NCBI RefSeq assembly: GCF_965363235.1
Contig: NC_134840.1
Span: 95,740,416 to 95,804,415, forward strand
Direction: 5' to 3'
Source of the DNA: Mytilus galloprovincialis
Taxonomy: Eukaryota > Mollusca > Bivalvia > Mytilida > Mytilidae
Length of the DNA: 64,000 nt
How positions within the stretch are numbered: position 1 is the stretch's first letter; the number at the start of each line of letters is the position of its first letter. A program made the translations under genes and the position numbers. Below the pieces are notes generated by a model. That model was given only the letters and a program-made list of their open reading frames with translations, was not told where the DNA came from and did no database searches. Below are positions 4,694-62,250 of the stretch, in pieces.

Positions 4694-4735
4694 AGTCAAG
4701 GAATATTACAAAATTCTTGGACATGTTTTGACCAT

Positions 4736-33745: not shown

Positions 33746-33994
33746 TAAAAATTAAAATCTGGTAGACATGCACATCCTTAGGTTAGGGTTTAAACATCTT
33801 AAAGTATTAAAAGCAATACACTTCCAAAAACTGAAGAAGCAGCTAAACAGACAAATCATGTATCTATTTCCAGACTGGTAAATTAACATGGCTCTCAAAT
33901 TATTGTTACTGGACATAATAAAAAGATTATCCATTAATGATCTTCATGTCTCCAATATACATTAAAACTCGTTGCATTGTTATATGCACCCATC

Positions 33995-34255
33995 CTATGT
34001 CAGCTCTTTGTTCAGTGATTGTCGTTTGTTGGTGTGCCTTATAGGTGTTTTTGTATCTCAATTTATATATAAAGATAGACTTTTAGTTTTCCTGTTTGGA
34101 TTACTTTACGCTGGTCATTTTGGGGCCCTTTATAGCATGCTCTTTGTTGCAAGCCAAGACAATGTGTTGAAGGCCATACTATCACCAATAACGGTTTACT
34201 TTAATACATTGTGACTTGGATGGAGGTTTGTCTCATTGGCATCACATCTTATTTA
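33995..34255 (+). repeat. Dispersed mussel-type repeat, subfamily A
   Basis: GTTTGTTGGTGTGCCTTATA, GGGGCCCTTTATAGC and TTGGATGGAGGTTTGTCTC in order. Diverged. Confidence 0.78.
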
Positions 34256-38703: not shown

Positions 38704-38857
38704 TCTTGCTCAGAGATCTTCTCGCTATAATTTCGCGCGCAATATGAAAATTATGTTTACTTTGCACTTGTAGACCAACGATATTTGCTTAACAAGTTCA
38801 CTTGTGTGAAGTTGACTTATTCATAAAAACAATACAAATGAACTTATACTATGTAAG

Positions 38858-39919: not shown

Positions 39920-40844
39920 AATGACTAACCCGAGTTAAGAGAGAGCAGTATCTCTTGCACGTAAAAGACACCCTTTTAGATTTCGAAAAGAGCAGGCTAA
40001 GGCTACAAGGAGGAACTCGCACCCTCAAAGTGGAAACGGATTAATATAAGTTGTAATAACTTGTTTCCCAATCCACTATAAATAAATATGTTTAAACTAA
40101 AAGAAAAAGCAGCAGAAAAGACAGGGGTTTAAACTTTTTTTTTAAATATTCTGTTTCAATCAAAAAAAGAGAAAATATCTTTGCTCCAAGGGGATACTAA
40201 TTTAAATGAATATTATGTTTCTGTTTTAATTTAACTGTACTTAAAAAAAAATGTGCCGCTTTTTCATTTCGGTTCTATACGTAGCAAGTCAAACAAACCG
40301 CTCATATAAATTATGCTTTATGATTGAGCTGCACGAAATGAAAAAAGTACGACGTTATTTATACAATGCATGAAAAATAACGTCAAACTAACGTTACCAA
40401 AACTAACACCAACACCGTACGCGACGTCATAGGATATAGAAGTTATGCCGTAACGTTGGTTTTCTCGTTTTAACTATGATATGTCGACTTTATTATCTCA
40501 ACAAGTCGACATTATGGAAGCATTAAATCGACTTGTCTAGATAGTTAACACAACATGTCGACATACTTAACTGCCACAAGTCGACAAAAGATATCTCGGC
40601 ACCCGTAACTGCCCTTGTCTTGTTGAGTTGTCGTATTAATTATCACAAGTCAGCTTTATTTTCTTGACAAGTCTACATGCAACGGGGTCGGTAGAAACAA
40701 GATAGGTTAAAATGTCGAATTCTTATTTTGCTTCCAATTTCGATGGAATTTTTATCATAGAATACCTCTTGACAGGATTTTTCGGTGGTTCATTGTATTC
40801 AACGGATTTCACAAAGCTCGATTGTTTTTCAAGATAAAGGGGCC
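39920..40844. other. Segment between elements 1 and 2, with GTCGAC motifs
   Basis: Positions 40481-40533 hold a hairpin-forming unit (ATGTCGACTT … AAGTCGACAT, then ATGGAAGCATTAAATCGAC), with further CAAGTCGAC and CAAGTCAGC copies to about 40680. A closely similar unit in the same orientation lies outside the other end of element 2 (62527-62578). No gene recognised. Confidence 0.6.
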
Positions 40845-40850
40845 CATTTG
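40845..40850 (+). other. Target-site duplication, left (CATTTG)
   Basis: CATTTG directly abuts the left terminus of element 2 and is repeated in the same orientation at 62245-62250. Confidence 0.8.
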
Positions 40851-41308
40851 TATGGAAGCGCATATGGTACACCCCTTGTAAAGTTATTTTGTTGCTAATA
40901 AGTCGGAATTATTAGTCAAGTTGTGTGTTATAAGCTGGAATCTTATCATCAAGTTGAAGTCAAGTTGTCGGAATGATGTAGAAAAATTGTTTTACAATGT
41001 CGACTTTCTGATATAAATATAATGGCATAGTAATAAGAGTCGACACGTTGAATTCAACTTATTAATTGATTAAGTCGACAACTTGTTTATTTGATATTAA
41101 ATCATCATGTTGAAGTCAACTTGTCGGAATGATGTAGATAAAGTTTTTATTACAATGTCGACTTGCTAATATAAATGTAAATGACATAAAATAAGAAGTC
41201 GACTTGTTTATTAATTAAGTCAACTTGCTTATTTGATGTTAACTTTATTCGTTCTCATTGTCAGATTCCCACGGTCCGTATTTTACTTCCTGTGCTGACA
41301 CATTAAAG

Positions 41309-41359
41309 ATGGAGATCGACAGCAACAACATCAGCGGGAGCAGTGGAAACGAGTCATAA
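41309..41359 (+). other. Putative 5' leader exon with a 16-codon upstream frame
   Basis: The sequence ATGGAGATCGACAGC…GAGTCATAA is followed at once by a consensus donor GTAAGT (41360). The ATG opens a 16-codon frame that ends at the splice site, so translation of integrase B must start downstream. The copy in arm 2 (61785-61735) is identical. The upstream boundary is unknown. It lies 458 bp from the element end. Preceding text TTCCTGTGCTGACACATT may be promoter-proximal. Confidence 0.5.
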
Positions 41360-41764
41360 GTAAGTTTATATTTGTTTTCTTTGGAGACTTAGCGTTATAT
41401 TTTAATATGAAGCAATACTGAACACAAAATGAAAAAGATCATAGGGAGAAAAAACGTTATTGTTTGAATGAAAGGGCATCGAAAAGTTACAGTTTAACGT
41501 GACCTGTGATAAGATCTAGAGTTAAGACGTCTGCTATTATTAAAGATATATTCTACTTAAAGGGTTTCACCCCTCTCCCCACCATCCCATCACAAGTACA
41601 CTACCCGTTCTGTACGACTGTCAATGAAAAATGGAAAAAAACTGAATGGTCCCTCCCTTTCGCCTTTCATAGTCCTTTGTAGATCAATCTCCATGACTCA
41701 TTTAATTCATAACAGCTAAGCAAAAAAAAATTAGTATTCTAAACAAATAATTTGATTCACAACT

Positions 41765-41932
41765 AGCAGGGTGGATCTTGTCATTTATAAGGGTTGGGTA
41801 TGGGGATCCTAGCCCACGATAAAGGGGAGTTCCAACTATATGTCCCCATTCAATTGCATTGATCTTCCAAATAAATGTAAAAAAGGGTTCCAACCCCGGA
41901 CCCCCTGGATTCGCCACTAATGCCAGGTAGAA
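41765..41932. repeat. Short GGATCY-rich MITE-like sequence in arm 1
   Basis: GGGTGGATCTTGTC … TATGTCCCCATTC … GGGTTCCAACCCC … CTGGATTCGCCACT. Related to 15438-15561. The mirror copy is at 61165-61330 in arm 2. Confidence 0.6.
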
Positions 41933-42080
41933 AAGCATGATGCGAAACGAAATATGTGTTCACTTTATTTTGATATTGACCGATTAGAAGATTTTGCTAT
42001 TCATTAAACATTTCAATTGACGAAATATCGTCTATTTCAGCTGCTTGGTCACCTGCCCGTCTAATAAATGGTCAAAGACT

Positions 42081-42970
42081 ATGGAATCAAGCAATATTTT
42101 AAAGGTAATGTTGAAAGTAAAACAAAGAAATATGTTGCTGACATCGAACATCAAATCAACACACTTTGGCTTAAAAACAAACAAAATTTGTCAAAACTTT
42201 CTTGTATAGTTTTTATAATGTTTTTCTTCATTTAGACTAATCAGCTCCATCTTCGTGGAAAGTATGAAAAAGGTTTAATACTGTATTGTGATTTATTTTT
42301 TGTAAAAACTGCACCTTAAACGGCCAAAAATTACAAAAAATAAAGGATTACCAAAATAGGAAAAATGAGCACACATTTACACGGCTCTAGCGAAAAATAT
42401 AGTGAACCATGATATAAAGTTTCTTCATATTTTGTCTAGCATGCGCAGTAAAAGCGAGACATGTAGGTACGGTTTTACAGGCGACGGTGAATATATGGCG
42501 TTAACATTGCAACCAAGTTTGCTGTTCATACCTTTATCTCGTGAAGCATAACGAGTAAGGTTCTTATATTTAGGATGCAGATTTCCTACATATTGTTCTT
42601 GCCAGTCAGTCATGTGCCATTTATCTTTGACCTATTTTAAATGCTTGAATGACCCTGAAGAACTCTAATAGTCAATTTTGCAACCGAGTTTACTGCTTAA
42701 GTCCATATCTCAAGAAATAGAAGTCTAAGGTTGATAATATTTGGCAATAACGTCTCCAACTACAAGGGGATGATAGTCTGAAGTGTAATTTTAGCTTTGA
42801 CTTAGGTTGATGATATTAGACAAGGAGGTTCCCCACTACCAGGGGATGTCATTTTGATACCTGTAATTAGGTCTTTCAACCTTTCAGGTGAAAGACCTAT
42901 AGGGTTTGTTCTGATTATTATTATTAGGTCTTTCAACCTTTCTGTTGAAAGACCTATTGTATTCGTTCTG

Positions 42971-43006
<36 letters not shown>

Positions 43007-46000
43007 TTTATTTTTTTTCTTCCGCCAACTTTTTTTTCCTTCGCTGTTTTTTTGTTTCACAAGATGTCACTTAGATATATGGTATATGATATCGAACAGT
43101 TAATGCGCTTCTGAAACTGACACCGCGTAACAAAAACCTTTACCTTGTAAGAGTTATCTCCCCGAACACTGTTTTTCTTGTGGCCACTAAGGCTTCGCAA
43201 CCGTAAAAGAAAGCGACAAATTTATTTTTCCAAATTGCTCGTTATATCCTCAGGATGATCTGTTTTATTTTGACCGAAGCTATCTGGAGACTCCATATGA
43301 GAGTTATCCCCCCTTTTATATATGATATAAGTGATTTGCATTTCTAACTGGTAAACCATTAGTGATAGAGACCTAGGGTCTTTAGATTTAAGATCCTTGG
43401 TCCAAAAAAATGAAAATTAGGTCAAGGTCAAAGGTCAAGGTCAAATTCTAAATTTTGATTTTGGCTTATTTTTACTTATTTTCAATTACTTTATAAGATT
43501 TCGACAAAATATTTTTACTAAATTGTTAGTTGCGACATGACGTAACTTATAAATTTTGATTGGAAGGGTGCGTAGACAATAAATGGGAGTTTTTGCCCCT
43601 CTTATATTTAGAATTATGCGTAAAGTGATATTACTCATGAACCATACATAATACAGATCTGGGGTCTTTTGATTTGGGATTCTATGTTTATGACCTTGAA
43701 ATTGAGGTCAAGGTCATAGGTTATTTGGACGTTCTAGATTTTGGCCTTTGCTCGAAATTCATATTTATACATCATAAAGCTATAGGAACTGACATTTTCA
43801 ACTGAATCTTAATATTTTCATATCAAAATACATCCTTATTGGTTGAAAGACCTTCAATTGTTCTTTGAACAATTGGTTTTTAATTATTATTATTATTATT
43901 ATTATTATTATTTTTTTTTTTTTTTTTTTCTTCCGCCAACTTTTTTTTCCTTCGCTGTTTTTTTGTTTCACAAGATGTCGCTTAGATATTTAATATATGA
44001 TATTGAACAGTTGATGCGCTTCTGAAACTGACACCGCGTAACAAAAACCTTTACCTTGTAAGAGTTATCTCCCCAAACACTGTTTTTCTTGTGGCCACTA
44101 CTACTTCGCAACCGTATAAGAAACCGACAAATTTATTTTTCCAAATTGCTCGTTATATCCTTAGGATGTTCTGTTTCGTTTCAACTGAAGCTATCCGGAG
44201 ACTCCATATGAGAGTTATCCCCCCTTTTATATATGATATCAGTGATATGCATTTCTAACTGGTAAACTATAAGTGATAGAGACCTAGGGTCTTTTGATTT
44301 AAGATCCTTGGTCCAAAAAGATGAAAATTAGGTCAAGGTCAAAGGTCAAGGTCAAATTCTAAATTTTGATTTGGGCTTATTTTCACTTATTTTCATTAAC
44401 CTTATAAGATATCGACAATTTATTTTTACTAAATTGTTAGTTGCAACATGTCGTAACTTATAAATTTTGGTTGCAAGGGTGCGTAGACAATAAATGGGAG
44501 TTTTCGCCCCTCTTATCTTTAGAATTATGCGTAAAGTGATATTACTCATGAACCATACATAATATAGAACAAGGGTCTTTTAATTTGGGATCCTTGGTTT
44601 ATGACCTTGAAATTGAGGTCAAGGTCATAGGTTAATTGGACGTTCTAGATTTTGACCTTTGCTTGAAATTCATATTTATACATCATTAAGCCATAGGAAC
44701 TGACATTTTCAACTGAATTTTAATATTTTCATATCAAAATAGATCTTTATTAGTTGAAAGACCTTCAATTGTTCTCTGAACAATTGGTTTTTAATTTGAT
44801 CTTGGCCTTGTTTTTATGGTTGATTGACTTTGACAATATGCGACCAAATTTTATAAATTAGTCAATGATTGATAAAGAACTAGATATCATGTTTAAGGAG
44901 GCATGATGTTACAACAAATTTAGCAAAAATTGAAACATATTTTTTTCATAACAAATTTTATTCATTAGGTACACTATTCGTTGTTTCTTTAAGATATGGT
45001 ACAAAAATCAACCAAACAAAATAAATTCGTTTAGGCATCAGATGACTTTTAAAATGTTTATTCGATTGCAATATGCTGGAAGAAGATATGTCCTCTTGTT
45101 TGAAAATGAAAACATGTTCAAATGTAAAAATATCATATGCTTATACCTGATACCTATAACGGGTAAATTTAAAAATGAAATATGTTATAAATATCGCCAT
45201 GAAGATTTATTTTGGATTGTCAAAACTTACTGTGTATTTTTCCATTTCGTATTCCATTAAATGTGAAGGCGCAGCGCATTTCCTAGTAGTTTTATAGTAA
45301 GCTGATGACGTCACAGTGAACACCCTATTTAGATATCAAGCCAATCGGATTTTTCATTTTATCATTACATCATACGTGTAATTTCTATCTTTATGTTTCA
45401 GTTACTCTGTTGTCTCCTTTGTGTTGCTGATCATGACGTTACAGGAATACCTTACCCAGGCGATGATGCTTCTGTGCCTGAACTAGTCCAATACTATCAT
45501 CAATTATGCTACACGTCCCTTCAAATATGTGGATTTCTCTTGTTTGTTCACGGAACATTCATGAGTTGTTCCATGTTAAAAAGACTTAAGAGAAGATTAA
45601 ATATCAGACGGCGTAGCAACCAGTCGCCATTACCTACAGTTGTAAGGACAATCCTGGCTTTACACCGTAATGGCCTGTCTAATGTTGGATACAGGTATAT
45701 GTGGAGGACTCTGAACATAGGCTTTGGACTTTGCGTCACACAATCAAGAGCAAGGCTTTGCTTAAGAACAATAGACCAACAGGGTGTACTTAACAGATCG
45801 CATCGAGTTCTTCGAAGGAGAGTGTACTACAATAGAGGACCTAACTATCTGATTCATGTCGATGGTTACGATAAATTAAAACCCTACGGCATAGCTATAC
45901 ATGGGGCAATCGATGGATACTCTCGTAAACTTTTATGGTTGATAGCAAGTCCCTCCAACAATAACCCCAGATATGTCGGTTACTGGTATCTTAATTGGAT

Positions 46001-46643
46001 CAAACAAAGAAAGATGCTTCCAAGGGTTGTTCGATCGGATGCAGGAACAGAAAACGTCATAATGAGGGATTTACAAAGATCGTTGCGACATAATCAAAAC
46101 GATGAAATGTCGGGACAAAATTCTTTTCTCGTCGGCAGATCTGTTGCAAATCAAAGAATAGAAAGGCTTTGGGGTACACTAAAAACGAGTTTCACTCAGT
46201 TTTGGAGAAACCGTTTCCAGGATTTCCAAGACACTGGACTTCTTAATGTATCGTGTCCAGTACATAAAGAATGTGTTCGATTTTGTTTCCTCTCCGTTAT
46301 CCAACATCAATTGGACATGTTTGCTGAGAACTGGAACTCACATAGAATAAGAAGACAACGTGCTGAAGTTGTAACACCCAGTGGTATTCCAAATATGTTA
46401 TACTATCAGCCAGAGATCTTTGGTGGAAGAGACTGTTCATTTCCTTTACCATGTAACTTACAAACAATTGACAATCTCATAGAGGAATATACAGAGAACT
46501 TTCCAGAGCATGGCTGTAGCAATGAATTTATTAACATTGTCGAGTTGCTTACTGGGAACAGACGAGATCAGTTTCCCATCATCACATCATACGATGACGC
46601 AGAGCTATTGTTTCGGACATTGATTGCTGCCTTACCGAATTGA
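42081..46643 (+). CDS. Integrase-like (DDE) protein B, spliced, 421 aa (arm 1 copy)
   Basis: The coding exons are 42081-42104 (MESSNILK, in the exon 42041-42104 between …TATTTCAG and AAG|GTAATG) and 45402-46643 (acceptor …ATGTTTCAG, 413 codons plus stop). The intron is phase 0 and 3.3 kb, inflated by the insertion at 42869-44791. Domain order: HTH-like segment (LQICGFLLFVHG … LKRLKRRLNIRRR), a second helical segment (NGLSNVGYRYMWRTLN), then the catalytic core NYLIHVDGYD, RSDAGTEN and NQRIERLW, with putative D162, D221 and E262. The end carries RIRRQRAEVVTPSGIPNMLY. Length and splice position match integrase A (420 aa), arguing that both models are right. Expected role: cutting and joining of the element ends in the nucleus. 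The frame is intact. A host-domesticated integrase is an alternative reading. Confidence 0.78.
42869..44791. mobile_element. Dimeric AGGTCTTTCAAC element inserted in arm 1 only
   Basis: The equivalent site in arm 2 is empty, and TAATT flanks the insert (42864-42868 and 44792-44796). It holds two tandem ~920-bp units. Each has an (ATT)n tract, GCCAACTTTTTTTTCCTTCG, TCGCAACCGTA, a cluster of AGGTCA motifs and the end GTTGAAAGACCTTCAATTG with a hairpin CAATTGTTC…GAACAATTG. The start AGGTCTTTCAAC is the inverse of GTTGAAAGACCT near the end. Non-coding; the open frames over the T-rich tract are spurious. Confidence 0.85.
42969..43008. repeat. (ATT)n microsatellite, first unit
   Basis: ATT trinucleotide tract at the head of the first unit of the dimeric insert; a second tract is at 43882-43912. 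Confidence 0.9.
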
Positions 46644-47085
46644 ACATTTGCTATACATTTTTTATACAATAATGATTTTGCATAAACATTTTTTTAGAAA
46701 TTAATTATATATATAATATAAGTAGGTTTGATATTTGGTTTTACCATACAAGAATTAAATCAAACAAAATTACTAGGAGTTACTATATACTGTTTCTTGG
46801 TCTAGATTTTTTGTTGTTGATTATGGTAAATATAAAAGAAAATACTCTCTACGCCTAGTGCAGCATGATACGATCACATTTATCAAGGGAACAAACAGTA
46901 GGGCAAGTGTTGACACAAAGCTCATGCCTGATTTGTAACGCCTGGTCTCGGCACAAAAAAGTTTGCCAATGGGATATGATATTCCTATGTTGATCGCATT
47001 CGTTTGAATGGTTTTGTTTCTACTTTCTTGTACTCAAGGATCTAGTTTAATGACAAACTTTTTGCGCCAATACTTTAGGATATGA
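46644..47085. other. 3' flank of integrase B
   Basis: AT-rich, with the mirror at 57935-58374. No polyadenylation signal stands out. Confidence 0.4.
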
Positions 47086-47910
47086 AACAAAAGACTATTA
47101 AGAGGCTGTATCGCTCACATCAACCGTGGCTACATAAGCCAGCCCAATTTAGACCCCGATATAATAGGTATGTTCCCCGTTATTGCCCATCAAGGATGGA
47201 TATAGCACTGCTTGAAAAGTGTTCATACAAAAACAAATGTTATCAAGTTTGGTCTCAGTAGTTTTGTTTAAGATCTTTGATCCCCCTGGCCCTCAGCTCA
47301 GGGTCCAATGTTAAACTATGTTGTTAGTAATTCCTGCAATCTTGGGTTATAGTCTTGAACCTACCAGGCATAGTTTGCCTGTGCATTTTAAAAGATCATT
47401 GTGACCAAGTTTCATTGTAATTTGCACTGTACTTTTAGAAAATATCTTTCAATAAATTTCGCCATATGGTATAATCTCAACTACGTTCGTCACTGGCAAT
47501 CAAGTTGGATTGTACCCTGTCCTGCCGAACACAATTTTGCTAGAAGGCCATCCAATGATAAGTTTTGCTTCAATTTGTTTAGTAGTTTCTAAGTAGAAGA
47601 TCTTTCTATGCATTTCCAAATAAGATGCACTTACACTACGTTTTCCGCGGGCGGCCATCTACGATTGGAGACATACCTGACAGATATATTTATTGTAAGG
47701 ATTTACTAGTAGTTTGTTTGCAATTAGTTCTATAAATTCTGTGTAAAAATGTGCTCCGTTGAGCGTAGCAAGTAACGACCGTATAAAGGGTACATTCGGG
47801 TAAGTGTTGACACAAAGTAAATGTAGACATATTAAATTGCTAGACTCCATCCAATTCAATCGCCCCGAAAGGGCCAATCACATCTCTAGACCCGATTTGG
47901 GCCTCTTGTT
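47086..47910. repeat. Dispersed 'AAGAGGC' repeat in arm 1
   Basis: Starts GACTATTAAGAGGCTGTATC and ends CCCGATTTGGGCCTCTTG. It contains CCTGCCGAACACAATTTTGC, a phrase echoed at 50578 and 53118 in the spacer. Mirror copy 57115-57930. No credible coding frame. Confidence 0.55.
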
Positions 47911-48469
47911 TGTTGGAAACGATAAACAAAAAACTTAAAAAATTAAGTAAAACACAATGTATGAAATCTACAAAATAAAAATATAAATCTATAAAGTATA
48001 CACATGTCGAACAACATTTTTCGTTTCATCAAGTTGAAGCATTTTCAGTCTAGATCCTTTTTGGTACTCTTCTTTTTCAAAACCGCCAACAAATTACATA
48101 ATCCATTAAAATACCTTCATATGATTTCTGTTCCAAACATCTTCATCAAAATCGGACAAAAAAAAATTGATTTCCAATTTGTTCTTGGTTCACCCCTTTT
48201 GGCCTTGTGTTTCTCAAAAACGGTAAATTCAACATCAAATATTTAAAACTATTTCCTACAGGGTCCAATGTGAAATCGTTGTTCCCCTCGGAGGCCTTGG
48301 ATCAAACCAAAACCGGCCGGAAACAATTTGCAAAGGGAACTAGGTTTTGTTCCAATTGGTTGTTTTGAGCAACTGTTTAACTATGTTCCCGCTATGCCAG
48401 ATCGTTTAAAAAGAATCAATACAAGAACCAATGTAAACAAGTTTGGTTCCAATTGACCTATAATTGTTA
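47911..48469. other. Arm 1 sequence with no recognised gene
   Basis: The 80-codon open frame at 48004-48246 is the same in arm 2, but that follows from the duplication and is not evidence of coding. Text such as GGGTCCAATGTG and AAACAATTTGCAAAGGGAAC belongs to a dispersed repeat. Confidence 0.4.
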
Positions 48470-48545
48470 ATGTTTGTGTCATTTTGGTCTTTTGTGGATA
48501 GTTGTCTCATTGGCAATCATACCACATCTTCTTTTTTATAAGTAA
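48470..48545 (+). repeat. Dispersed repeat fragment, subfamily B
   Basis: TTGGTCTTTTGTGGATAG and TTGGCAATCATACCACATC. Mirror copy at 56505-56575. Confidence 0.75.
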
Positions 48546-48597
48546 GTTCAGAGAAGATATTTGAATGCATTTCATACAAGTGTGGCAGTTAGTAGAT

Positions 48598-48802
48598 AGA
48601 TATAGGAAGATGTGGTGTGAGTGCCAATGAGACAACTCTCCATCCAAATAACAATTTAAAAATTAAACCATTATAGGTTAAAGTACGGCCTTCAACACGG
48701 AGCCTTGGCTCACACCGAACAACAAGCTATAAAGGGCCCCAAAATTACTAGTGTAAAACCATTCAAACGGGAAAACCAACGGTCTAATCTATATAAACAA
48801 AA
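48598..48802 (-). repeat. Dispersed repeat, subfamily A (minus), cut at the arm border
   Basis: The arm 1 copy stops at ATATAAACAAAA, whereas the arm 2 copy continues ACGAGAAACACG as in other family members. Confidence 0.82.
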
Positions 48803-49019
48803 TTTATTATGTCATCATTATTTCCCTTGTTTAAAACTATAAATTTCATATTTCTTTATTTGATGATTTAGATGAAGCTTATTCGCTATATATTTGTTAA
48901 ATAGCATAGCTTTTGCTATTTGAATACATTGGTAAAGGATATCTATTTATATTGTAAAGTTTAATATTTGCACCGTCGCAAAACCTTTGAGAAACTTATA
49001 TATTTTATAGAACTCGTTA
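48803..49019. other. Start of the element 2 spacer
   Basis: AT-rich; nothing recognised. Confidence 0.35.
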
Positions 49020-49745
49020 ACCGGATTTTAGGGACAAAAATGTCGGTTATTGATTGGGGATGTACGGCGACCGGGCGGGCGGCAATCAAATGTTGTCCGT
49101 GCATTAACTCATGAACCGTTCAACCAAAGCTTTTAAAATACTAATAACTAAATGAAGGTCAAGTTCAATAATGGCGAATTTGACTTTTACCGTTCAGGAG
49201 TTATGGTTCTTAAATGATGGAAAAATGGAGTTTCCAGTCGTGTCCGTGCATTAACTCATGAACAGTTCAACCAAAGCTTTTAAAATTTTAAAATGTTGTT
49301 ACTGACAACTAAATGAAGGTCAAGTTCAATAATGGCGATTTTGACTTTTACTGTTCAGGAGTTATGGTTCTTGAAAAATAGAATATTGAAGTTTCCAGTC
49401 GTGTCCATGCATTTACACATGAACTGTTCTACCAAATCTTCCCAAATTTTAATATGTTATTATTGATGACAAAATGAAGGTCAAGTTCAATAATGACGAT
49501 TTTGACTTTTACCGTTTAGGAGTTATGGTTCTTGAAAGAATGTGAAATGGCATTTCCATTCAAGTGGTTGCATCTAAGCTTTTCAAATTTTAATATGTTG
49601 ATACTGATGACAAAGTGGAGGTCAAATTTGATACTGACAATTTTCACTTTCACCGTCCAGCAGTTATGGTTCTTGTGATATTGGCAGGACAAAAATAAAT
49701 GATAATAAATCCGGTTTGCTGTCGTTGTGACAGCCAGCCTCTTGT
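49020..49745. repeat. ~155-bp degenerate tandem repeat, four units
   Basis: Landmark AAGGTCAAGTTCAATAATGG recurs near 49155, 49316 and, with changes, 49477 and 49620, each followed by GACTTTTACCGTTCAGGAGT and TATGGTTCTT. It starts AACCGGATTTTAGGGAC and ends AAATCCGGTTTGCTG, so the outer ends are inverted and this is probably one non-autonomous element. Confidence 0.8.
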
Positions 49746-50082
49746 TTTAGATTATTATCTTGAATTCTCTAAGGATTGATATTCAGTCCAACCAAGGAAC
49801 GCCAAGCTCTCAAAACAGAATTTAGGATAGTGCATTTGATACGTGCCTCCATAGTACATTAGTGCATTTGCTACATGCTTTCTAAGTACGAGTTTGAAGA
49901 TATTGAATGCTCCATTTCTGATTACCTTTGGCATGTGATAATAAAAGTTGTACTTTGTTAATTAAATTATATATTGTTTTCAGTTTTTGGTTTTCATTCA
50001 CTTAGATATATTTTAGCGCATCACATTTGGCATCAGTCATTTCTATTACATCAGTTTACAAACTAGAACTAGTATCTCAATT
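49746..50082. other. Spacer DNA, nothing recognised
   Basis: AT-rich, with repeated ATTAGTGCATTTGCTACATG-like text at 49830-49880. Confidence 0.35.
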
Positions 50083-50490
50083 GTTTGTAAAACAATTGAA
50101 AGGTCTTTCCTGTTAAAGTGATGTTTTCGTAATGTACTTTGTACGACCTTTCGTTTGATATACGACAAGCATACCTTCTAAAACTTTTCGCTTATAACAC
50201 TTAATGGTCTCATCCGCCTAATTTTTTTTAGATCGGAAGTATGATATATGTAACATAGAGTATATGAGCTTTCATTTTATATGCGACAACTCCATGTTCT
50301 AGAAAGTTTGATTTTTGCACTTAATAACCCTATTCAACTTATTTTTGGAGGTCGGGAATTTGATATTTCATATGTTCATATCATGACCTTTCATTTGATA
50401 TACAACAACCCTATCTTAAAAGAAAATGTATTGTTTGCACTCAATAACCCCATTGGCCAAGTAATTTCAGAGGAAAAGATTCTTCAATGT
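50083..50490 (-). repeat. Relative of the AGGTCTTTCAAC element (minus)
   Basis: CAATTGTTTGTAAAACAATT followed by GAAAGGTCTTTCC matches, in reverse, the hairpin end of the insert at 42869-44791. It is followed by CTTTCATTTGATATACAACA repeats. Confidence 0.55.
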
Positions 50491-51676
50491 TAAGGTCCTG
50501 TTATGTTTTGATATGTTACATGTATGTTGTCAACAATTTTTGTTTAGATGATGTATGATATGTACTGGAACGGACCTTGACCTGTCGAACACAATTTTCA
50601 AAGGGTACCATTTAAGAGTCGTTGAGACCAAGTATGGTTCTAATTGACCATTTAGTTCCAGAGGGAAACAATTGTGAAAGTTTTACCATAGGTTTAAATG
50701 TTAAACTCTGTTAACAGCTGTTGGTCATCTTGGAAAATATCTTTGAATGTTTCCTATAGGGTCGAATGTTTTAATGTTTCCCTCTTGCGGTAATCTTGGA
50801 TGGTACCATAAACTGCTGACATAATTTAATCAAAGCACCGGAAGCGCTGTAGGCAGTTAACCAAAAACCAAGCCAAACATAATTATAAAAACTGTGGCAA
50901 TGTTGCTTCAATTTTTTTAAAGATTTTTTTAAAATGAACAAACATTAGACAGTCATATATTGTACATTTATGTTCATTTAATGAATTAATCATTAAGGCA
51001 AATAATTCATATTTTGTCAAAGTTTTAAAAGCATCGCATATATCAAGTATATTTTTTTCATGGTAATGAGTCTGCAGTGGTACAAGTTTGCAATGATTGT
51101 AGTCCTTCTAGTTGATAGTTAACGTTGGTATAAGTTGACTGTTAGTAGTTCAAGTTGCCTTTAGTAAGAGCTTGTAAAAGTATGAATGGACTTGCTTCCC
51201 TGGAAAGAAAACTGAGTTTGTGTTCAACAGTACAAAAGTTATGAGACACAAATCAGACAAATGTTTACTACTACAAGGATCAAAGGTGAGGTCTGACTAA
51301 CCTGTCCATAGTAAATGTTAATGTCCCCCACCTTCACCCCAAGTTTATGACGTCTGAGTTTGGAATAAAATGGCAGGTAATTATAAAAACAGTTGGTCAA
51401 ACATTCTTGGGCTTGAAAGATATGTTTTCTTTATAATGAGCCATATGAAAATGCAAATTTTTATAGGACCAGTAATAATTCAAATTATAATTAAGGGAAA
51501 TTCTTTAAAACTACTTATTATTTTCCATCAATAAAATTTTACAATTATCAAAAAAAGATATTGTTACATAATGCTGTTATGAATTCTTTCAAACAAAACT
51601 TCAATAATTATTCATTCCTATGGTCACCGACAAATTGGGCAAGATCTAGTACACGTTGGATAGGTCTATCAAAGTG
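50491..51676. other. Spacer DNA with dispersed-repeat scraps
   Basis: Around 50570-50830, phrases like CTGTCGAACACAATTTTC and AAAGGGTACCATT recall the arm repeat at 47086-47910. No gene recognised. Confidence 0.4.
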
Positions 51677-51990
51677 ACATAGATATAGGACGATATGGTG
51701 TGACTGCTAATGAGACAACGCTCCATCCAAATAACAATTTCAAAAAAGTAAATCAGTATAGGTCAATGTACGGCCTTCAACACGGATCCTTGGCTCACAC
51801 CAAACAACAAGCTATAAAGGGCCCCAAAATTACTAGTGTTAAACCATTCAAACGGGAAAACCAACGGTCTAACCTATAAAAAAAACGAGAAACGAGAAAC
51901 ACGTATAAATTACATAAACAAACGGCAACTACTGTACATCAGATTCCTGACTTAGGACAGGTGCAAACATTTGCAGCGGGATTAAACGTT
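51677..51990 (-). repeat. Dispersed mussel-type repeat, subfamily A (minus), near complete
   Basis: GATATAGGACGATATGG … AGGGCCCCAAAATTACTAG … AACCAACGGTCTAA … ACGAGAAACACG … TCAGATTCCTGACTTAGGAC. Extends past the point where the arm 1 copy is cut. Confidence 0.85.
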
Positions 51991-52139
51991 TTAATGGATC
52001 CAAACCTTCTCCCTTTTACAGAAACAATAGCATAACATCACAACATAGAAAGACATGCATATGTGACGCCTATGAGATTGACATTGTATGTCATTCAATC
52101 TTTTTGAAATGACAAACAGGAATGAATATGATTTAGTTT

Positions 52140-52595
52140 AGGAGTTGGTTTTTCAATCTTTTACAAGTTCTCAAAACACACACAAGAGGGGATGGGGTGA
52201 CCCTAGGGACTGCCCTAATATTTCATTTAATGTTTTTGTATCTTGTCCCATACATGCATATATATGGTTTGGGGTGGGGATCTCAATCGTTATCAAGTTT
52301 TCAAACAGGAGGGGTGGGATGATCCTAGTATATTTCATTTGATTTGTTATGTTGTCCAATACATGGATATATATGGTTGAGGAAGTATTATTTGAAACAT
52401 CAGTGACTAGCAGACTTATAATCCAGATGAAATAAAGTGGAAAATTTTGGATATAAATTTCTGTTTCTAAGTTATCAAACAGGAGTTTGTAGGGTGACCC
52501 TAAGGACTCTCCCTATATTTCATTTGATTAGTTCTCAATCATGAATATATATGGTTTAATTTAAAGGTGGGGATCTCGACTGTTTCGACTCGGGG
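52140..52595. repeat. Degenerate tandem repeat, three units
   Basis: Units near 52145, 52280 and 52470 share GGGGATCTC, TCAAACAGGAG, GTGACCCTA, TATTTCATTTGAT and ATATATGGTTT. Period ~130-180 bp with indels. Confidence 0.65.
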
Positions 52596-55154
52596 GCTTA
52601 TAAACAACATAAGGAATCCTAATGTGCTCTACTTCCTATGTGCAACTTCAAAACTTTTGGGAAAATCGATCATTTAAGGTTTTTCTGGTCATATCTTTTG
52701 TAATCCAGAACGAAAAGTATGAAAAAACTATCCTTTAAGTTATAAATAGCAAAGTTACCAGCTAGATAAGAACAATGGCAAGTATTTCAGCATTTATTGG
52801 GTAGAACACAAATCCAGGGTGCTTGCATAAAGCAGCTTAACTGCATAAAAAGGTTACATTCCAAGGACCACCATGATCAATTTTGATCCTTATTGGCCAA
52901 ATACTTTCAGCTATCTTAGATTGTGTATCCCTTTTAAGTTCAAATGTTCAATTAAGATCTGTGGCATGTTGTTAACCATCTTGGATCGGACCCGAACCTT
53001 CTGGATACCCATTTTGACCATGTTTGGTTACAATTTGGCAAGTAGTTTCAAAGACTTTCCTTATGGTCCAATGTTTAACTATGTTCCATGCTGGCAGTAA
53101 TCTTATAGATTGAACCTACCAGACACAATTTTTAAAGGACGCCATCCGTGAATACTTGTGATAGAGTTTGGTTCTAATTGGCATAGGAAGGAACAGATCT
53201 CACAATTCATGCCATACCAATATGCAACCACAAAAACTGTTTGAGGCCATATAAAATGAAGTCCACGATAAAGAGGAAGTGAATGTTTAATTGCTCTCTG
53301 ATTGCACCCAGGGTATGGCATTAATACATAATGAATTGTGCATCAGGATTCAAAGATGGGTAGTTGCTGAGAAAAATGTGATTAATATTCGGTGAAGTCA
53401 TCACTTTATTAATTCCACCCAAACTATGAATTTACCAAGTCAAACTGAACTGCTATTGTTAGCTAATAGCTGTTATTTACCAGTTCTTCATATTTTTGGC
53501 ATTATTTTAGCTGTTCTTAGCATTCCATATAATACCAGTTTGAAAAAACTGTCTAATTTGACCATTTCTTAGCAGTCATGGTACCTTTTAAAGTGTTGTC
53601 AATTGGACAACAGTTATGACAGCAGTTCCATAGCAGTTAGATAGCTGATTGGATTTTAATCTTTGTTATAAAAATGCTTGGACCTGACTTGTGTTTTCAG
53701 CTTGAAAGTAAACCTTCATTTGAATGATCAAATGTGCATTTTTGGCTCCAAACTGTGTGTAAATTCTTGCTAGTGAAAAACTATTTTTGTCAATTATAAA
53801 TTATAATTTAGGCTAAATGGAATGCATTCACAAACCCACAGTACAGTAAGTTGAAGTTACAGTTAGTGTATGTGTATATTCTGACATAAATTTGTAGGGG
53901 AAAACAGAAATCACACAGACAGCCCAAAAAGGGGGGATACTGGTTTATTCAAATAGAATAGTTGATGTTGGCAGGAATGTAATAAACTAATATCATATAC
54001 TTGCAGTGCAAGATGTTATTTGAAAATGAAGATACGACTATTTTAATATGATTTTTTTTAAAAACAAAAATACATCATATTCATTATTCAAGACTTGAAA
54101 AACGGGGAGGGAGTATTAGGTAAACATAGGCTGCAAATAGCCGATTGGTTATGGTTAATATTGACCAAACAATCCATTTTATGAGTTTGACTGTCCCTCT
54201 GGTATCTTTCGTCCCTCTTTTAATGAAGTTGATGTATGTTACTGAAGTTTGTTTCCAAAATTGGAAACATAATTTTGGAAACATGATACAATGTTTTACA
54301 TAATACATAACATTATTATTACGTGTATTATTTTGTTTTTGTTTAAATCCAAAAGAGAAAGAGAATTAATATAGTTTCACCACTGCAACAAGTGTGTTGC
54401 AATATTTCTCCACTGGAGACAGTCAATTTTCAATATTTTAAGTGCTAGGCTTTCTTAGTTTTTTTAAATTTTACTGTGGAGAATGGAGAAATATTGTAAT
54501 ACACGAGTTATTAGTGGTGAAATCTGTTTCTCTGATGTACAGCTTAGAAAATCAACTTAGCACTTTGTATGAATATGCATTATTGATAGCTGTTAGTATA
54601 CCAGTTCTCATGAATATTCAGTGCTGACATCAGTTTTTTTGGGTACATGTATCTCATTTAAAATTTTCGTCACAAAAACCTGCTTATAATTGTGAAGGCT
54701 AAATAAACTGCTATGAAATGCCTATTATGCAAACTAGCCATTGCCTTGAATTTGTCAACTGTGAATGCTAATGAACTGCTGTCATTAGTTAGAACTGTGA
54801 ATGCTAATAAACTGCTGTCCACTTTGACTTGGGTTATCAAAACATTCAAGTATTCATTTTAAAAAGTTGAATATACTTGACTTTATACTTCATCTGGGCA
54901 CTGATTGAGTCAAAATTAACAATGAAACAGATGTTATTAGTATCTGTTATTCTTGTATCTTTCTTTGTAAACGCATTTTGTATGTTCAGTTATGTATTGG
55001 TTTATTAGGACCCAGCTACAAAATGTGGCTGATGCCTTATAGTGATCAGGTCGTCCAGACATAACACAGTGTCCAGGCTGTGCCTCTTTATATAATTGGC
55101 ATTACAGTACTGCAACTGATCTCAAAAGAGACGCTTAGTTAACAGTTTAATGTT
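52596..55154. other. Spacer DNA, no gene recognised
   Basis: About 2.5 kb of AT-rich DNA. 52880-53170 contains the dispersed phrase AACCTACCAGACACAATTTT. 54178-54216 is a repeat scrap shared with 8440-8465. 54700-54820 has two copies of GTGAATGCTAATRAACTGCT. No motif-bearing open frame. Confidence 0.4.
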
Positions 55155-55365
55155 CATTTTTTTTTACATAAATAAGGCCGTTAGTTTTCTCGTTTGAATT
55201 GTTTTACCGGTCTTATCGTGGCCTTTTATAGCTGACTATGCGGTATGGGCTTTGCTCATTGTTGAAGGCCGTACGATGACCTATAGTTGTTAATGTTTGG
55301 GTCATTTTTGTGGATATTTATAGTTGCCTCATTGGCAATCATACCACATCTTCTTTTTTATAATA
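55155..55365 (+). repeat. Dispersed repeat, subfamily B
   Basis: AAGGCCGTTAGTTTTCTCG, GCTGACTATGCGGTATGGGC, GCAATCATACCACATCTTC. Close to 17371-17642. Confidence 0.8.
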
Positions 55366-56154
55366 TAACAGTTCCGGAATAAAACACGGCTGCAAATTGT
55401 TTTAAATGATAGACTAGTATATAGATTTAAATTTCTTTCTGTTCATAAAAAGTTTTGTGGTCACATTTTTGTATTTTAGCACTTTTAATTGGGTATACAC
55501 CTCAATTTACGGTGTTAGTAGTCACCTTTAAATCCCAAAACCAAAATCATTTTGTTATTTATTGACTCTTTTTATTAAAATTTTCGATGCACATATAATC
55601 AAGGATCATTGGACTGATGAAGACATAAATTTAATACCATCCTCGAGTAAAGCTCTCAAACTTAAAGTTGGCAGTTTCTAAGATGGAAATTTAACGCATT
55701 TATTTTTGGAAAACAAGAAAATATATGATTCAAAAGTAATATTTGACGTTTCAGAGGACAAATCATTATTATTGTGATACTGCATGCAAAATTTGTTGGG
55801 CAAATTCCAAAGTTTTGTAAAAAAAAAATAAAAAAAATAAATAAATTAAAACATCATTTAAAGGGAAACCGGTACTACAATATATTACATTTCCCCAACA
55901 TTAGGTTGGCCTTTTGTGTACCCAAGGCAGATGAAGGAAGTCAACTTAGAAACGCCGTGATTGGATGCAAGAGTACAATATATTTTTTTTACTGATCTAT
56001 GAATATTAAACTGCAGTGTGTATATTTACAATAAAGATTTAAAAACCCATTGAAGATTTTCTAGAGAATATTCGAAAAGACTTCCAAAATTTCATAAATT
56101 TGGTGTAAAATGACGGCGGGCATGGATATGCCAGACCTAAATCAGAAACTCGCT
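55366..56154. other. Spacer DNA, nothing recognised
   Basis: AT-rich with an A-run near 55818-55850. No gene recognised. Confidence 0.4.
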
Positions 56155-56442
56155 GCAAATGTTTGCACCTGTCCTAAGTCAGGAATCTGATGTACAGTAG
56201 TTGTCGTTTGTTTATGTAATATATACGTGTTTCTCGTTTTGTTTATATAGATTAGACCGTTGGTTTTCCCGTTTGAATGGTTTTACACTAGTAATTTTGG
56301 GGCCCTTTATAGCTTGTTGTTCGGTGTGAGCCAAGGCTCCGTGTTGAAGGCCGTACTTTAACCTATAATGGTTTAATTTTTAAATTGTTATTTGGATGGA
56401 GAGTTGTCTCATTGGCACTCACACCACATCTTCCTATATCTA
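56155..56442 (+). repeat. Dispersed repeat, subfamily A, full copy spanning the arm 2 border
   Basis: The inverted-arm homology begins at 56238, inside this repeat. The part left of 56238 (TCCTAAGTCAGGAATCTGAT, ACGTGTTTCTCG) is shared with 51677-51990 but missing from arm 1. Confidence 0.85.
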
Positions 56443-56504
56443 TCTACTAACTGCCACACTTGTATGAAATGCATTCAAATATCTTCTCTGAACTTACTTA
56501 TAAA

Positions 56505-56585
56505 AAAGAAGATGTGGTATGATTGCCAATGAGACAACTATCCACAAAAGACCAAAATGACACAAACATTAACAATTATAGGTCA
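56505..56585 (-). repeat. Dispersed repeat fragment, subfamily B (minus)
   Basis: Mirror of 48470-48545. Confidence 0.75.
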
Positions 56586-58374
56586 ATTGGAACCAAACTT
56601 GTTTACATTGGTTCTTGTATTGATTCTTTTTAAACGATCTGGCATAGCGGGAACATAGTTAAACAGTTGCTCAAAACAACCAATTGGAACAAAACCTAGT
56701 TCCCTTTGCAAATTGTTTCCGGCCGGTTTTGGTTTGATCCAAGGCCTCCGAGGGGAACAACGATTTCACATTGGACCCTGTAGGAGATAGTTTTAAATAT
56801 TTGATGTTGAATTTACCGTTTTTGAGAAACACAAGGCCAAAAGGGGTGAACCAAGAACAAATTGGAAATCAATTTTTTTTTGTCCGATTTTGATGAAGAT
56901 GTTTGGAACAGAAATCATATGAAGGTATTTTAATGGATTATGTAATTTGTTGGCGGTTTTGAAAAAGAAGAGTACCAAAAAGGATCTAGACTGAAAATGC
57001 TTCAACTTGATGAAACGAAAAATGTTGTTCGACATGTGTATACTTTATAGATTTATATTTTTATTTTGTAGATTTCATACATTGTGTTTTACTTAATTTT
57101 TTAATTTTTTTGTTTATCGTTTCCAACAAACAAGAGGCCCAAATCGGGTCTAGAGATGTGATTGGCCCTTTCGGGGCGATTGAATTGGATGGAGTCTAGC
57201 AATTTAATATGTCTACATTTACTTTGTGTCAACACTTACCCGAATGTACCCTTTATACGGTCGTTACTTTTTTACACAGAATTTATAGAACTAATTGCAA
57301 ACAAACTACTAGTAAATCCTTACAATAAATATATATGTCAGGTATGTCTCCAATCGTAGATGGCCGCCCGCGGAAAACGTAGTGTAAGTGCATCTTATTT
57401 GGAAATGCATAGAAAGATCTTCTACTTAGAAACTACTAAGCAAATTGAAGCAAAACTTATCATTGGATGGCCTTCTAGCAAAATTGTGTTCGGCAGGACA
57501 GGGTACAATCCAACTTGATTGCCAGTGACGAACGTAGTTGAGATTATACCATATGGCGAAATTTATTGAAAGATATTTTCTAAAAGTACAGTGCAAATTA
57601 CAATGAAACTTGGTCACAATGATCTTTTAAAATGCACAGGCAAACTATGTCTGGTAGGTTCAAGACTATAACCCAAGATTGCAGGAATTACTAACAACAT
57701 AGTTTAACATTGGACCCTGAGCTGAGGGCCAGGGGGATCAAAGATCTTAAACAAAACTACTGAGACCAAACTTGATAACATTTGTTTTTGTATGAACACT
57801 TTTCAAGCAGTGCTATATCCATCCTTGATGGGCAATAACGGGGAACATACCTATTATATCGGGGTCTAAATTGGGCTGGCTTATGTAGCCACGGTTGATG
57901 TGAGCGATACAGCCTCTTAATAGTCTTTTGTTTCATATCCTAAAGTATTGGCGCAAAAAGATTGTCATTAAACTAGATCCTTGAGTACAAGAAAGTAGAA
58001 ACAAAACCATTCAAACGAATGCGATCAACATAGGAATATCATATCCCATTGGCAAACTTTTTTGTGCCGAGACCAGGCGTTACAAATCAGGCATGAGCTT
58101 TGTGTCAACACTTGCCCTATTGTTTGTTCCCTTGATAAATGTGATCGTATCATGCTGCACTAGGCGTAGAGAGTATTTTCTTTTATATTTACCATAATCA
58201 ACAACAAAAAATCTAGACCAAGAAACAGTATATAGTAACTCCTAGTAATTTTGTTTGATTTAATTCTTGTATGGTAAAACCAAATATCAAACCTACTTAT
58301 ATTAAATATATAATTAATTTCTAAAAAAATGTTTATGCAAAATCATTATTGTATAAAAAATGTATAGCAAATGT
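56586..58374. other. Arm 2 sequence mirroring 46644-48469
   Basis: Holds the mirror of the 'AAGAGGC' repeat (57115-57930) and non-coding flank; no gene recognised. Confidence 0.5.
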
Positions 58375-61013
58375 TCAATTCGGTAAGGCAGCAATCAATG
58401 TCCGAAACAATAGCTCTGCGTCATCGTATGATGTGATGATGGGAAACTGATCTCGTCTGTTCCCAGTAAGCAACTCGACAATGTTAATAAATTCATTGCT
58501 ACAGCCATGCTCTGGAAAGTTCTCTGTATATTCCTCTATGAGATTGTCAATTGTTTGTAAGTTACATGGTAAAGGAAATGAACAGTCTCTTCCACCAAAG
58601 ATCTCTGGCTGATAGTATAACATATTTGGAATACCACTTGGTGTTACAACTTCAGCACGTTGTCTTCTTATTCTATGTGAGTTCCAGTTCTCAGCAAACA
58701 TGTCCAATTGATGTTGGATAACGGAGAGGAAACAAAATCGAACACATTCTTTATGTACTGGACACGATACATTAAGAAGTCCAGTGTCTTGGAAATCCTG
58801 GAAACGGTTTCTCCAAAACTGGGTGAAACTCGTTTTTAGTGTACCCCAAAGCCTTTCTATTCTTTGATTTGCAACAGATCTGCCGACGAGAAAAGAATTT
58901 TGTCCCGACATTTCATCGTTTTGATTATGTCGCAACGATCTTTGTAAATCCCTCATTATGACGTTTTCTGTTCCTGCATCCGATCGAACAACCCTTGGAA
59001 GCATCTTTCTTTGTTTGATCCAATTAAGATACCAGTAACCGACATATCTGGGGTTATTGTTGGAGGGACTTGCTATCAACCATAAAAGTTTACGAGAGTA
59101 TCCATCGATTGCCCCATGTATAGCTATGCCGTAGGGTTTTAATTTATCGTAACCATCGACATGAATCAGATAGTTTGGTCCTCTATTGTAGTACACTCTC
59201 CTTCGAAGAACTCGATGCGATCTGTTAAGTACACCCTGTTGGTCTATTGTTCTTAAGCAAAGCCTTGCTCTTGATTGTGTGACGCAAAGTCCAAAGCCTA
59301 TGTTCAGAGTCCTCCACATATACCTGTATCCAACATTAGACAGGCCATTACGGTGTAAAGCCAGGATTGTCCTTACAACTGTAGGTAATGGCGACTGGTT
59401 GTTACGCCGTCTTATATTTAATCTTCTCTTAAGTCTTTTTAACATGGAACAACTCATGAATGTTCCGTGAACAAACAAGAGAAATCCACATATTTGAAGG
59501 GACGTGTAGCATAATTGATGATAGTATTTGGACTAGTTCAGGCACAGAAGCATCATCGCCTGGGTAAGGTATTCCTGTAACGTCATGATCAGCAACACAA
59601 AGGAGACAACAGAGTAACTGAAACATAAAGATAGAAATTACACGTATGATGTAATGATAAAATGAAAAATCCGATTGGCTTGATATCTAAATAGGGTGTT
59701 CACTGTGACGTCATCAGCTTACTATAAAACTACTAGGAAATGCGCTGCGCCTTCACATTTAATGGAATACGAAATGGAAAAATACACAGTAAGTTTTGAC
59801 AATCCAAAATAAATCTTCATGGCGATATTTATAACATATTTCATTTTTAAATTTACCCGTTATAGGTATCAGGTATAAGCATATGATATTTTTACATTTG
59901 AACATGTTTTCATTTTCAAACAAGAGGACATATCTTCTTCCAGCATATTGCAATCGAATAAACATTTTAAAAGTCATCTGATGCCTAAACGAATGTATTT
60001 TGTTTGGTTGATTTTTGTACCATATCTTAAAGAAACAACGAATAGTGTACCTAATGAATAAAATTTGTTATGAAAAAAATATGTTTCAATTTTTGCTAAA
60101 TTTGTTGTAACATCATGCCTCCTTAAACATGATATCTAGTTCTTTATCAATCATTGACTAATTTATAAAATTTGGTCGCATATTGTCAAAGTCAATCAAC
60201 CATAAAAACAAGGCCAAGATCAAATTACAGGTATCAAAATGACATCCCCTGGTAGTGGGGAACCTCCTTGTCTAATATCATCAACCTAAGTCAAAGCTAA
60301 AATTACACTTCAGACTATCATCCCCTTGTAGTTGGAGACGTTAATGCCAAATATTATCAACCTTAGACTTCTATTTCTTGAGATATGGACTTAAGCAGTA
60401 AACTCGGTTGCAAAATTGACTATTAGAGTTCTTTAGGGTCATTCAAGCATTTAAAATAGGTCAAAGATAAATGGCACATGACTGACTGGCAAGAACAATA
60501 TGTAGGAAATCTGCATCCTAAATATAAGAACCTTACTCGTTATGCTTCACGAGATAAAGACATGAAAAACAAAAACTTGGTTGCAATGTTAACGCCATAT
60601 ATTCACCGTCGCCTGTAAAACCGTACCTACATGTCTCGCTTTTACTGCGCATGCTAGACAAAATATGAAGAAAACTTTATATCATGGTTCACTATATTTT
60701 TCGCTAGAGCCGTGTAAATGTGTGCTCATTTTTCCTATTTTGGTAATCCTTTATTTTTTGTAATTTTTGGCCGTTTAAGGTGCAGTTTTTACAAAAAATA
60801 AATCACAATACAGTATTAAACCTTTTTCATACTTTCCACGAAGATGGAGCTGATTAGTCTAAATGAAGAAAAACATTATAAAAACTATACAAGAAAGTTT
60901 TGACAAATTTTGTTTGTTTTTAAGCCAAAGTGTGTTGATTTGATGTTCGATGTCAGCAACATATTTCTTTGTTTTACTTTCAACATTACCTTTAAAATAT
61001 TGCTTGATTCCAT
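58375..61013 (-). pseudogene. Integrase-like protein B, arm 2 copy, frame broken once
   Basis: Mirror of the gene at 42081-46643: first coding exon 61013-60990, main exon 59617-58375, with the same donor and acceptor. The intron is only ~1.4 kb because the 1.9-kb insert is absent, which probably shows its original length. The protein is almost identical to the arm 1 copy, including the DDE core (NYLIHVDGYD, RSDAGTEN, NQRIERLW), but the frame is interrupted once in the N-terminal quarter. An isolated read-error explanation cannot be excluded. The leader exon is mirrored at 61785-61735. Confidence 0.72.
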
Positions 61014-62244
61014 AGTCTTTGACCATTTATTAGACGGGTAGGTGACCAAGCAGCTGAAATAGACGATATTTCGTCAATTGAAATGTTTAATGAATAGCAA
61101 AATCTTCTAATCGGTCAATATCAAAATAAAGTGAACACATATTTCGTTTCGCATCATGCTTTTCTACCTGGCATTAGTGGCGAATCCAGGGGGTCCGGGG
61201 TTGGAACCCTTTTTTACATTTATTTGGAAGATCAATGCAATTGAATGGGGACATATAGTTGGAACTCCCCTTTATCGTGGGCTAGGATCCCCATACCCAA
61301 CCCTTATAAATGACAAGATCCACCCTGCTAGTTGTGAATCAAATTATTTGTTTAGATTACTAATTTTTTTTTTGCTTAGCTGTTATGAATTAAATGAGTC
61401 ATGGAGATTGATCTACAAAGGACTCTGAAAGGCGAAAGGGAGGGACCATTCAGTTTTTTTCCATTTTTCATTGACAGTCGTACAGAACGGGTAGTGTACT
61501 TGTGATGGGATGGTGGGGAGAGGGGTGAAACCCTTTAAGTAGAATATATCTTTAATAATAGCAGACGTCTTACTCTAGATCTTATCACAGGTCACGTTAA
61601 ACTGTAACTTTTCAATGCCCTTTCATTCAAACAATAACGTTTTTTCTCCCTATGATCTTTTTCATTTTGTGTTCAGTATTGCTTCATATTAAAATATAAC
61701 GCTAAGTCTCCAAAGAAAACAAATATAAACTTACTTATGACTCGTTTCCACTGCTCCCGCTGATGTTGTTGCTGTCGATCTCCATCTTTAATGTGTCAGC
61801 ACAGGAAGTAAAATACGGACCGTGGGAATCTGACCGTGAGAACGAATAAAGTTAACATCAAATAAGCAAGTTGACTTAATTAATCAACAAGTCGACTTCT
61901 TATTTTATGTCATTTACATTTATATTAGCAAGTCGACATTGTAATTAAAACTTTTTCTGTAGCATTCCGACAAGTTGACTTCAACATGATGATTTAATAT
62001 CAAATAAACAAGTTGTCGACTTAATCAATTAACAAGTTGAATTCAACATGCCGGCTTCTTATTACTATGTCATTATATTTATATCAGCAAGTCGACATTG
62101 TAAAACAATTTTTCTACATCATTCCGACAACTTGACTTCAACTTGATGATAAGATTCCAGCTTATAACACACAACTTGACTAATAATTCCGACTTATTAG
62201 CAACAAAATAACTTTACAAGGGGTGTACCATATGCGCTTCCATA

Positions 62245-62250
62245 CATTTG
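62245..62250 (+). other. Target-site duplication, right (CATTTG)
   Basis: Same six bases, same orientation as 40845-40850, directly outside CGCTTCCATA. Confidence 0.8.

Follow-up and report, generated by a model that had tools for sequence, protein, structure and literature searches.

A 19.8-kb transposon family of the mussel Mytilus galloprovincialis, probably of the IS3EU superfamily, with a transposase gene in each of its long inverted arms

The window considered here is a stretch of 64,000 nucleotides from the genome of the mussel Mytilus galloprovincialis (C3:95740416-95804415; contig NC_134840.1 of assembly GCF_965363235.1), and its positions 40851-62244 are occupied by one member of a transposon family that has ~6-kb inverted arms at both ends and one transposase gene per arm. 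As judged from the alignment of 22 arms, the two arms of a copy evolve together, with sequence apparently copied between them. We regard it as likely that the element is a cut-and-paste transposon of the IS3-like rva_4 group, one end of which was duplicated in inverted orientation and whose arms have exchanged sequence since.

Structure of the element

Positions 40851-48802 pair in inverted orientation with positions 56237-62244, in blocks that are 97–100% complementary, and both ends terminate in the same 17-mer, TATGGAAGCGCATATGG. The features of this copy, including its target-site duplication (TSD), are as follows.

40845-40850, plus strand: TSD CATTTG, left copy, 6 bp
40851-40867, plus strand: left terminus, the 17-mer TATGGAAGCGCATATGG
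40851-48802, plus strand: left arm, 7.95 kb (6.0 kb plus a private insert of ~1.92 kb)
40999-41246: cluster of AAGTYRAC motifs at the left end, candidate transposase binding sites
~42876-44791: private left-arm insert, ~1.92 kb
45333-46643, plus strand: intact transposase frame, 436 codons, first ATG at 45393 (416 amino acids), rva_4 integrase core
48589-48802, plus strand: dispersed ~300-bp repeat, truncated where the left arm meets the centre
48803-56236: unique centre, 7.4 kb, without a recognised protein domain
51679-51978, plus strand: third copy of the dispersed ~300-bp repeat, in the centre, 92%
56141-56450, minus strand: dispersed ~300-bp repeat, spanning the junction between centre and right arm
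56237-62244, minus strand: right arm, 6.01 kb
58375-59686, minus strand: second transposase gene, frame-shifted near residue 53
61849-62096: cluster of AAGTYRAC motifs at the right end, candidate transposase binding sites
62228-62244, minus strand: right terminus, the 17-mer TATGGAAGCGCATATGG as reverse complement of the left
62245-62250, plus strand: TSD CATTTG, right copy, 6 bp

A first-pass annotation, made from the letters of the window, had already described the inverted match with its perfect termini and had proposed an unusually large transposed unit flanked by a 6-bp duplication; both proposals are borne out, and the unit now belongs to a family of full copies. With 38 differences over the aligned sites, the window arms are 99.37% identical, and the extra length of the left arm is due solely to the private insert, which the other 21 aligned arms lack. 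The genome searched (1.38 Gb, 331 contigs) contains 92 exact copies of the 17-mer and none of the reversed control; together with 10 further pairs with ~6-kb arms, this argues that the inverted match in the window did not arise by chance. The AAGTYRAC motif, picked after inspection of the element ends, occurs 23 times in the window element, and 20 of these occurrences fall within 600 bp of an end, where a uniform distribution would place 1.3. The motif is also present near both ends of the three short elements examined (L029, L032 and L034; see below).

Full copies, target duplications and empty sites

Eleven pairs of the 17-mer in opposite orientation, including that of the window, are spaced 19.4–21.4 kb apart, and the other 10 (19.4–20.0 kb) were retrieved as full copies; a 19.0-kb pair (C4:64647885-64666846) and odd-sized pairs of 8.7, 9.0, 12.8 and 31 kb lie outside this set. 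The family size is ~19.8 kb, and all 11 full copies carry ~6.0-kb inverted arms ending in TATGGAAGCGCATATGG. Among the 10 other copies, the arms are 98.9–99.9% identical in blocks above 1 kb and 99.4–99.9% identical at aligned columns, with the inner arm edge at the same place within 2 bp. Their inverted homology starts at TATGG, in agreement with the terminus that the first-pass annotation had proposed to check in other copies. The 6-bp duplication that it had likewise expected there was observed in eight of the 10, the exceptions being L019, with 7 bp, and L013, with none. Over 19 elements (11 full and 8 short), the TSD measures 6 bp in 16 and 7 bp in one, and is missing in two. The flanks of L013 match a repeat that is also found at window positions 39928-40099. 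No target site shared by the TSDs and flanks of the 11 copies was found on inspection by eye.

Unoccupied counterparts were recognised for three elements. The joined flanks of L025 match an intact adjacent unit of a local tandem repeat across the junction (85.7%), with a single AATGAC. Copies of a single dispersed repeat host L009 and the short element L035, at points ~19 bp apart, so each provides the unoccupied site of the other; at the L009 junction 39 nt match at 92% across that site, and the reverse comparison, for L035, was made by eye. Therefore, insertion was precise, with a 6-bp duplication, in these three cases. L009, L035 and L001, the last judged from one end only, are three elements with the family terminus whose insertion points in copies of this repeat cluster within ~40 bp, and the repeat may be preferred as a target.

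In the centre, 10 copies aligned over 5750 columns show a between-copy difference of 0.68%, 185 singletons and only three informative sites, which is the pattern of a star-like burst: the family has recently multiplied. A 701-bp centre probe (53400-54100) detected at least 14 loci at 97–100% identity among the best 40 of 49 candidates. The same 40 candidates contain at least 26 distant relatives of the probe with best pieces 74–80% identical, none of them near a transposase match among the matches listed. An assembly artefact is an unlikely source of the arms, because the arms hold private differences and private inserts and the copies have distinct flanks.

Transposase genes

The integrase-like protein that the first-pass annotation had placed in each arm matches the rva_4 integrase core of Pfam (E = 3.3e-35), against E = 0.14 for the plain rve model; this transposase is the only recognised gene of the element. 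Weaker similarity was obtained with the NCBIfam model NF033516 (transpos_IS3; E = 1.1e-3, 18 bits vs. a cut-off of 160), and the transposase of a sister element (see below) matches the IS481 model (E = 2.5e-6, 27 bits vs. a cut-off of 224) and, under the cut-off, HTH_21 (E = 1.3e-3). Residues D177, D236 and E277 (numbering of the 436-aa frame) are invariant across three families of this genome and constitute a candidate catalytic triad. A search of PDB sequences gave nothing relevant, PHROGs contained no match for the transposase, none of the 78 stretches of IMG/VR viral contigs that fit the peptide patterns was confirmed, and pattern-limited scans of bacterial and archaeal collections yielded no confirmed relative.

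The transposase frame is uninterrupted in 13 of the 22 arms: in both arms of four copies, in one arm of five copies and in neither arm of two. Thus, in five of the 11 copies the second arm keeps a frame where there would otherwise be none (the near duplicates L013 and L017 both belong to this class). Genome-wide, at least 16 matches span residues 1–436 without a stop among the best 96 of 286 candidates.

Sequence exchange between the arms

The 22 arms were aligned and oriented by the centre, and L013 was left out of the allele statistics as a near duplicate of L017. Among 34 alleles found in exactly two arms, 32 are present in both arms of one copy, compared to 1.8 expected by random pairing; the remaining two are shared by different copies, once in same-side and once in opposite-side arms. 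The mean arm difference is 0.46% within a copy vs. 0.66% between copies (permutation P = 5e-5), and none of the 69 gapless informative sites separates all left from all right arms. In L019, a 392-bp insert resembling a miniature inverted-repeat transposable element (~94-bp inverted ends, TGAAGTTGT duplication) is identical in both arms, with the same TSD, and is missing from the other 20 arms, suggesting a single insertion that was then copied to the other arm. Concordance can be patchy along an arm: in the window copy the two arms disagree at 10 sites within the outermost 360 bp and have private alleles in common at arm positions 1172 and 3783, and the arms of L011 are also mixed. From these patterns we infer that the arms are homogenised by gene conversion rather than copied in some other way, and such exchange may keep a spare transposase copy intact.

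Related elements and other features

A sister element occupies approximately 23807-39921 of the window. It is 16.1 kb long, with inverted ends of ~330 bp, the right one of which is split by a ~740-bp insert and has an altered terminus, and with an intact transposase gene of 419 codons (25862-27121); no TSD was seen. A second sister, at L043 and L044 (3318-17870), spans 14.6 kb and has inverted ends of ~1.4 kb that are 94–96% identical in two long blocks, TACGGAAGCGTATATTACCC ends and a single interior transposase; a 5-bp repeat, CATAC, stands outside its ends in place of a 6-bp TSD. The two sister transposases are 51 and 48% identical to that of the element, the sister ends read TAYGGAARCGYATAT, and both sisters carry their single transposase outside the inverted ends. 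The L043/L044 sister is itself nested in a further element, whose ends read TATGGTGGCAT and which is flanked by CCCATC on either side. This outer element, running from L043 position 3175 to L044 position 8330, has TATGGTGGCATAC ends (a similar motif occurs at window ~62432) and may represent another TATGG-type family, since it contains 14 clustered AAGTYRAC motifs.

Thirteen short pairs of the terminus (3.1–3.4 kb) were also detected. Among the eight retrieved, seven have a 6-bp TSD and one (L036) has none; a ninth, L007/L008, of which the ends alone were read, shows CAGTTG, 6 bp, on both sides. Apart from short dispersed-repeat matches, only the outer ~245 bp of the eight retrieved elements match the large ones (87–92%), and thus they form a separate non-autonomous family and are not internal deletion products.

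Outside the young family, 67 of the 97 transposase matches listed were checked for inverted pairs closer than 40 kb. These included one old, degenerate pair of the element's own family (C9:9373807-9381576, 86–93%), which suggests that the arms predate the recent burst, as well as a pair at C1:28.27 Mb composed of members of two families and two degenerate sister pairs on C1 (C1:125958465/125966181 and C1:57004967/57016300). Sister transposase matches are thus mostly single among the matches listed, and long arms may exist elsewhere. At the other end of the window, positions 1-4745 consist of a very long tandem-repeat tract, probably a minisatellite, which has a strong GC skew and in which one reading frame, of YNPNPSA repeats, stays open over 1195 codons.

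Origin, mechanism and alternative explanations

In the proposed scenario, the inverted ends would probably have been shorter at first, with a single transposase gene in the ancestral element, this direction from short to long arms being drawn from two sister elements only, since these have the shorter inverted ends. The transposase-bearing end would have been duplicated, in inverted orientation, at the opposite end. In the window copy the breakpoint of the arm duplication lies inside the dispersed ~300-bp repeat, where the original event may also have taken place. The arms would then have exchanged sequence by gene conversion, like the arms of large palindromes, so that an intact transposase in one arm could back up or overwrite a broken one in the other. 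During transposition, the protein would recognise the ends, possibly via the subterminal AAGTYRAC motifs, make its cuts at TATGG and integrate the element with a 6-bp stagger. A more far-reaching idea, that a giant IS3EU-type lineage uses its palindromic arms for repair and that inter-arm gene conversion keeps a working transposase and hence 20-kb elements active, is put forward tentatively, and we consider it more doubtful than probable.

Several observations weigh against the main scenario, of arm duplication and exchange in an IS3-like element. The IS3 and IS481 matches fall far under the curated cut-offs. Distinct transposase changes among the copies comprise 43 non-synonymous (five of them stops) and 12 synonymous ones (omega ~1.17), so that purifying selection was not detected among the copies and adds no support for function, as expected if most changes post-date insertion. 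The structure model of the transposase was too poor to be used (mean predicted local distance difference test score, pLDDT, of 52). The AAGTYRAC motif is not clustered in either sister, with three of 12 occurrences in the outer 600 bp of the window sister and none of three in the L043/L044 sister; it was therefore rejected as a group-wide binding site, and together with the TSD findings in the sisters this reduces the support. With regard to arm exchange, the two arms agree in every copy at 32 of the 69 informative sites and disagree in one copy or more, chiefly L013 and L017, at the others. These two copies share 24 arm differences, and thus homogenisation did not accompany every transposition.

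The latter observation also bears on the best-surviving alternative, in which each transposition rebuilds the arms from one of them, by a hairpin, self-primed or template-switch route, in place of later gene conversion. It would account for the presence in both arms of mutations, and of an insert, that arose in one lineage. However, L013 and L017 have different flanks and the same 24 differences, so at least that round of transposition did not rebuild the arms, and the patchy concordance in the window copy and in L011 also argues against re-formation, which we judge unlikely.

The possibility that the element is a composite unit, in which two smaller elements in opposite orientation trapped the centre by chance, is suggested by the transposase in each arm and by the resemblance to bacterial composite transposons, but appears quite improbable. 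The inner arm edges of the window copy have no inner terminus and lie inside the dispersed repeat, the arms of the other full copies end within 2 bp of the same place, and a survey that covered eight of the 13 short pairs and none of the 8.7-, 9.0-, 12.8-, 19.0- and 31-kb pairs revealed no solo-arm element flanked by a TSD of its own.

Gene content was examined with Pfam on 74 frames of the centre and on arm frames with a minimum length of 38 codons; of the 66 arm frames, 52 were used, after removal of a duplicate and of 13 that overlap the transposase. In these frames rva_4 is the sole family above chance, and no above-chance match was obtained for DNA polymerase B (PolB), capsid, ATPase or protease. 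Weak matches (E of 0.015–0.1) concern eight other families in the centre and five in the arms, the best of them (0.015–0.016) to unrelated models; the centre thus has no recognised gene, although spliced genes with exons below 38 codons could escape a scan of frames. A Polinton/Maverick or virus-like element after gene loss was accordingly rejected as very improbable: it would fit the 6-bp TSD, the ~20-kb size, the long inverted ends and a weak match of a centre frame to the DNA polymerase zeta N-terminal model (E = 0.067), but not the gene content of the scanned frames, the rva_4 rather than rve type of the integrase or the unconfirmed IMG/VR stretches.

Comparison with known systems

Animal cut-and-paste transposons typically encode a single transposase, have short inverted ends and are eroded by mutation. 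Those of the IS3EU superfamily combine an IS3-like DDE (aspartate, aspartate, glutamate) transposase with a 6-bp TSD and TAY termini. The present element resembles them in the last two traits, with 6 bp in 16 of 19 elements and ends in TATGG here and in TATGG and TACGG in the sister families, and its transposase may be of the IS3-like type. It is therefore probably best placed in IS3EU, an assignment drawn from transposase type, TSD and ends. The first-pass annotation recognised no described family with this terminus, duplication length and gene; that the element fits no described kind is less well supported, as the rva_4 core, the weak IS3 and IS481 matches, the 6-bp TSD and the TAY ends point to this superfamily.

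Polintons/Mavericks also have a 6-bp TSD, a length of 15–20 kb and an integrase, along with DNA polymerase B, capsid, ATPase and protease; the element is similar in the first three traits and has none of the last four in recognised form among the frames scanned. Foldback elements possess very long inverted arms and bacterial composite transposons a transposase in each arm, whereas the arms described here show no sign of independence. With regard to the exchange between arms, a counterpart of these element-borne palindromes would be those of Y chromosomes, which undergo gene conversion.

IS3EU is listed as a superfamily by Repbase Update (PMC4455052; PMC5753468). Ginger1 and Ginger2/TDD likewise encode an integrase-like transposase in a cut-and-paste element, but Ginger elements have TSDs of 4–5 bp, inverted ends of ~40–270 bp and lengths of 2.6–7 kb, with TGTNR ends in Ginger1 (PMC2836005). 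The 6-bp TSD and 6-kb arms exclude membership, and the 19.8-kb length and TATGG ends also differ. Dada elements insert into small RNA genes, and Dada-U1 has no terminal inverted repeats (PMC3706591); Dada is ruled out by the long inverted ends and by the lack of a common site in the flanks of the 11 copies.

As a member of IS3EU, the element would be set apart by its 19.8-kb length and by 6-kb inverted arms that contain the transposase, and it is this architecture that is unusual, given that the sisters share a related transposase and related ends and, unlike the element, carry one transposase outside inverted ends of ~0.33 or ~1.4 kb. A recent family of at least 11 full copies thus has a transposase gene in each of two mirror-image arms, with variants that reveal mutual copying of the arms, and its relatives without long arms in the same genome make it a natural test system for the role of palindrome gene conversion in prolonging the life of a transposon.

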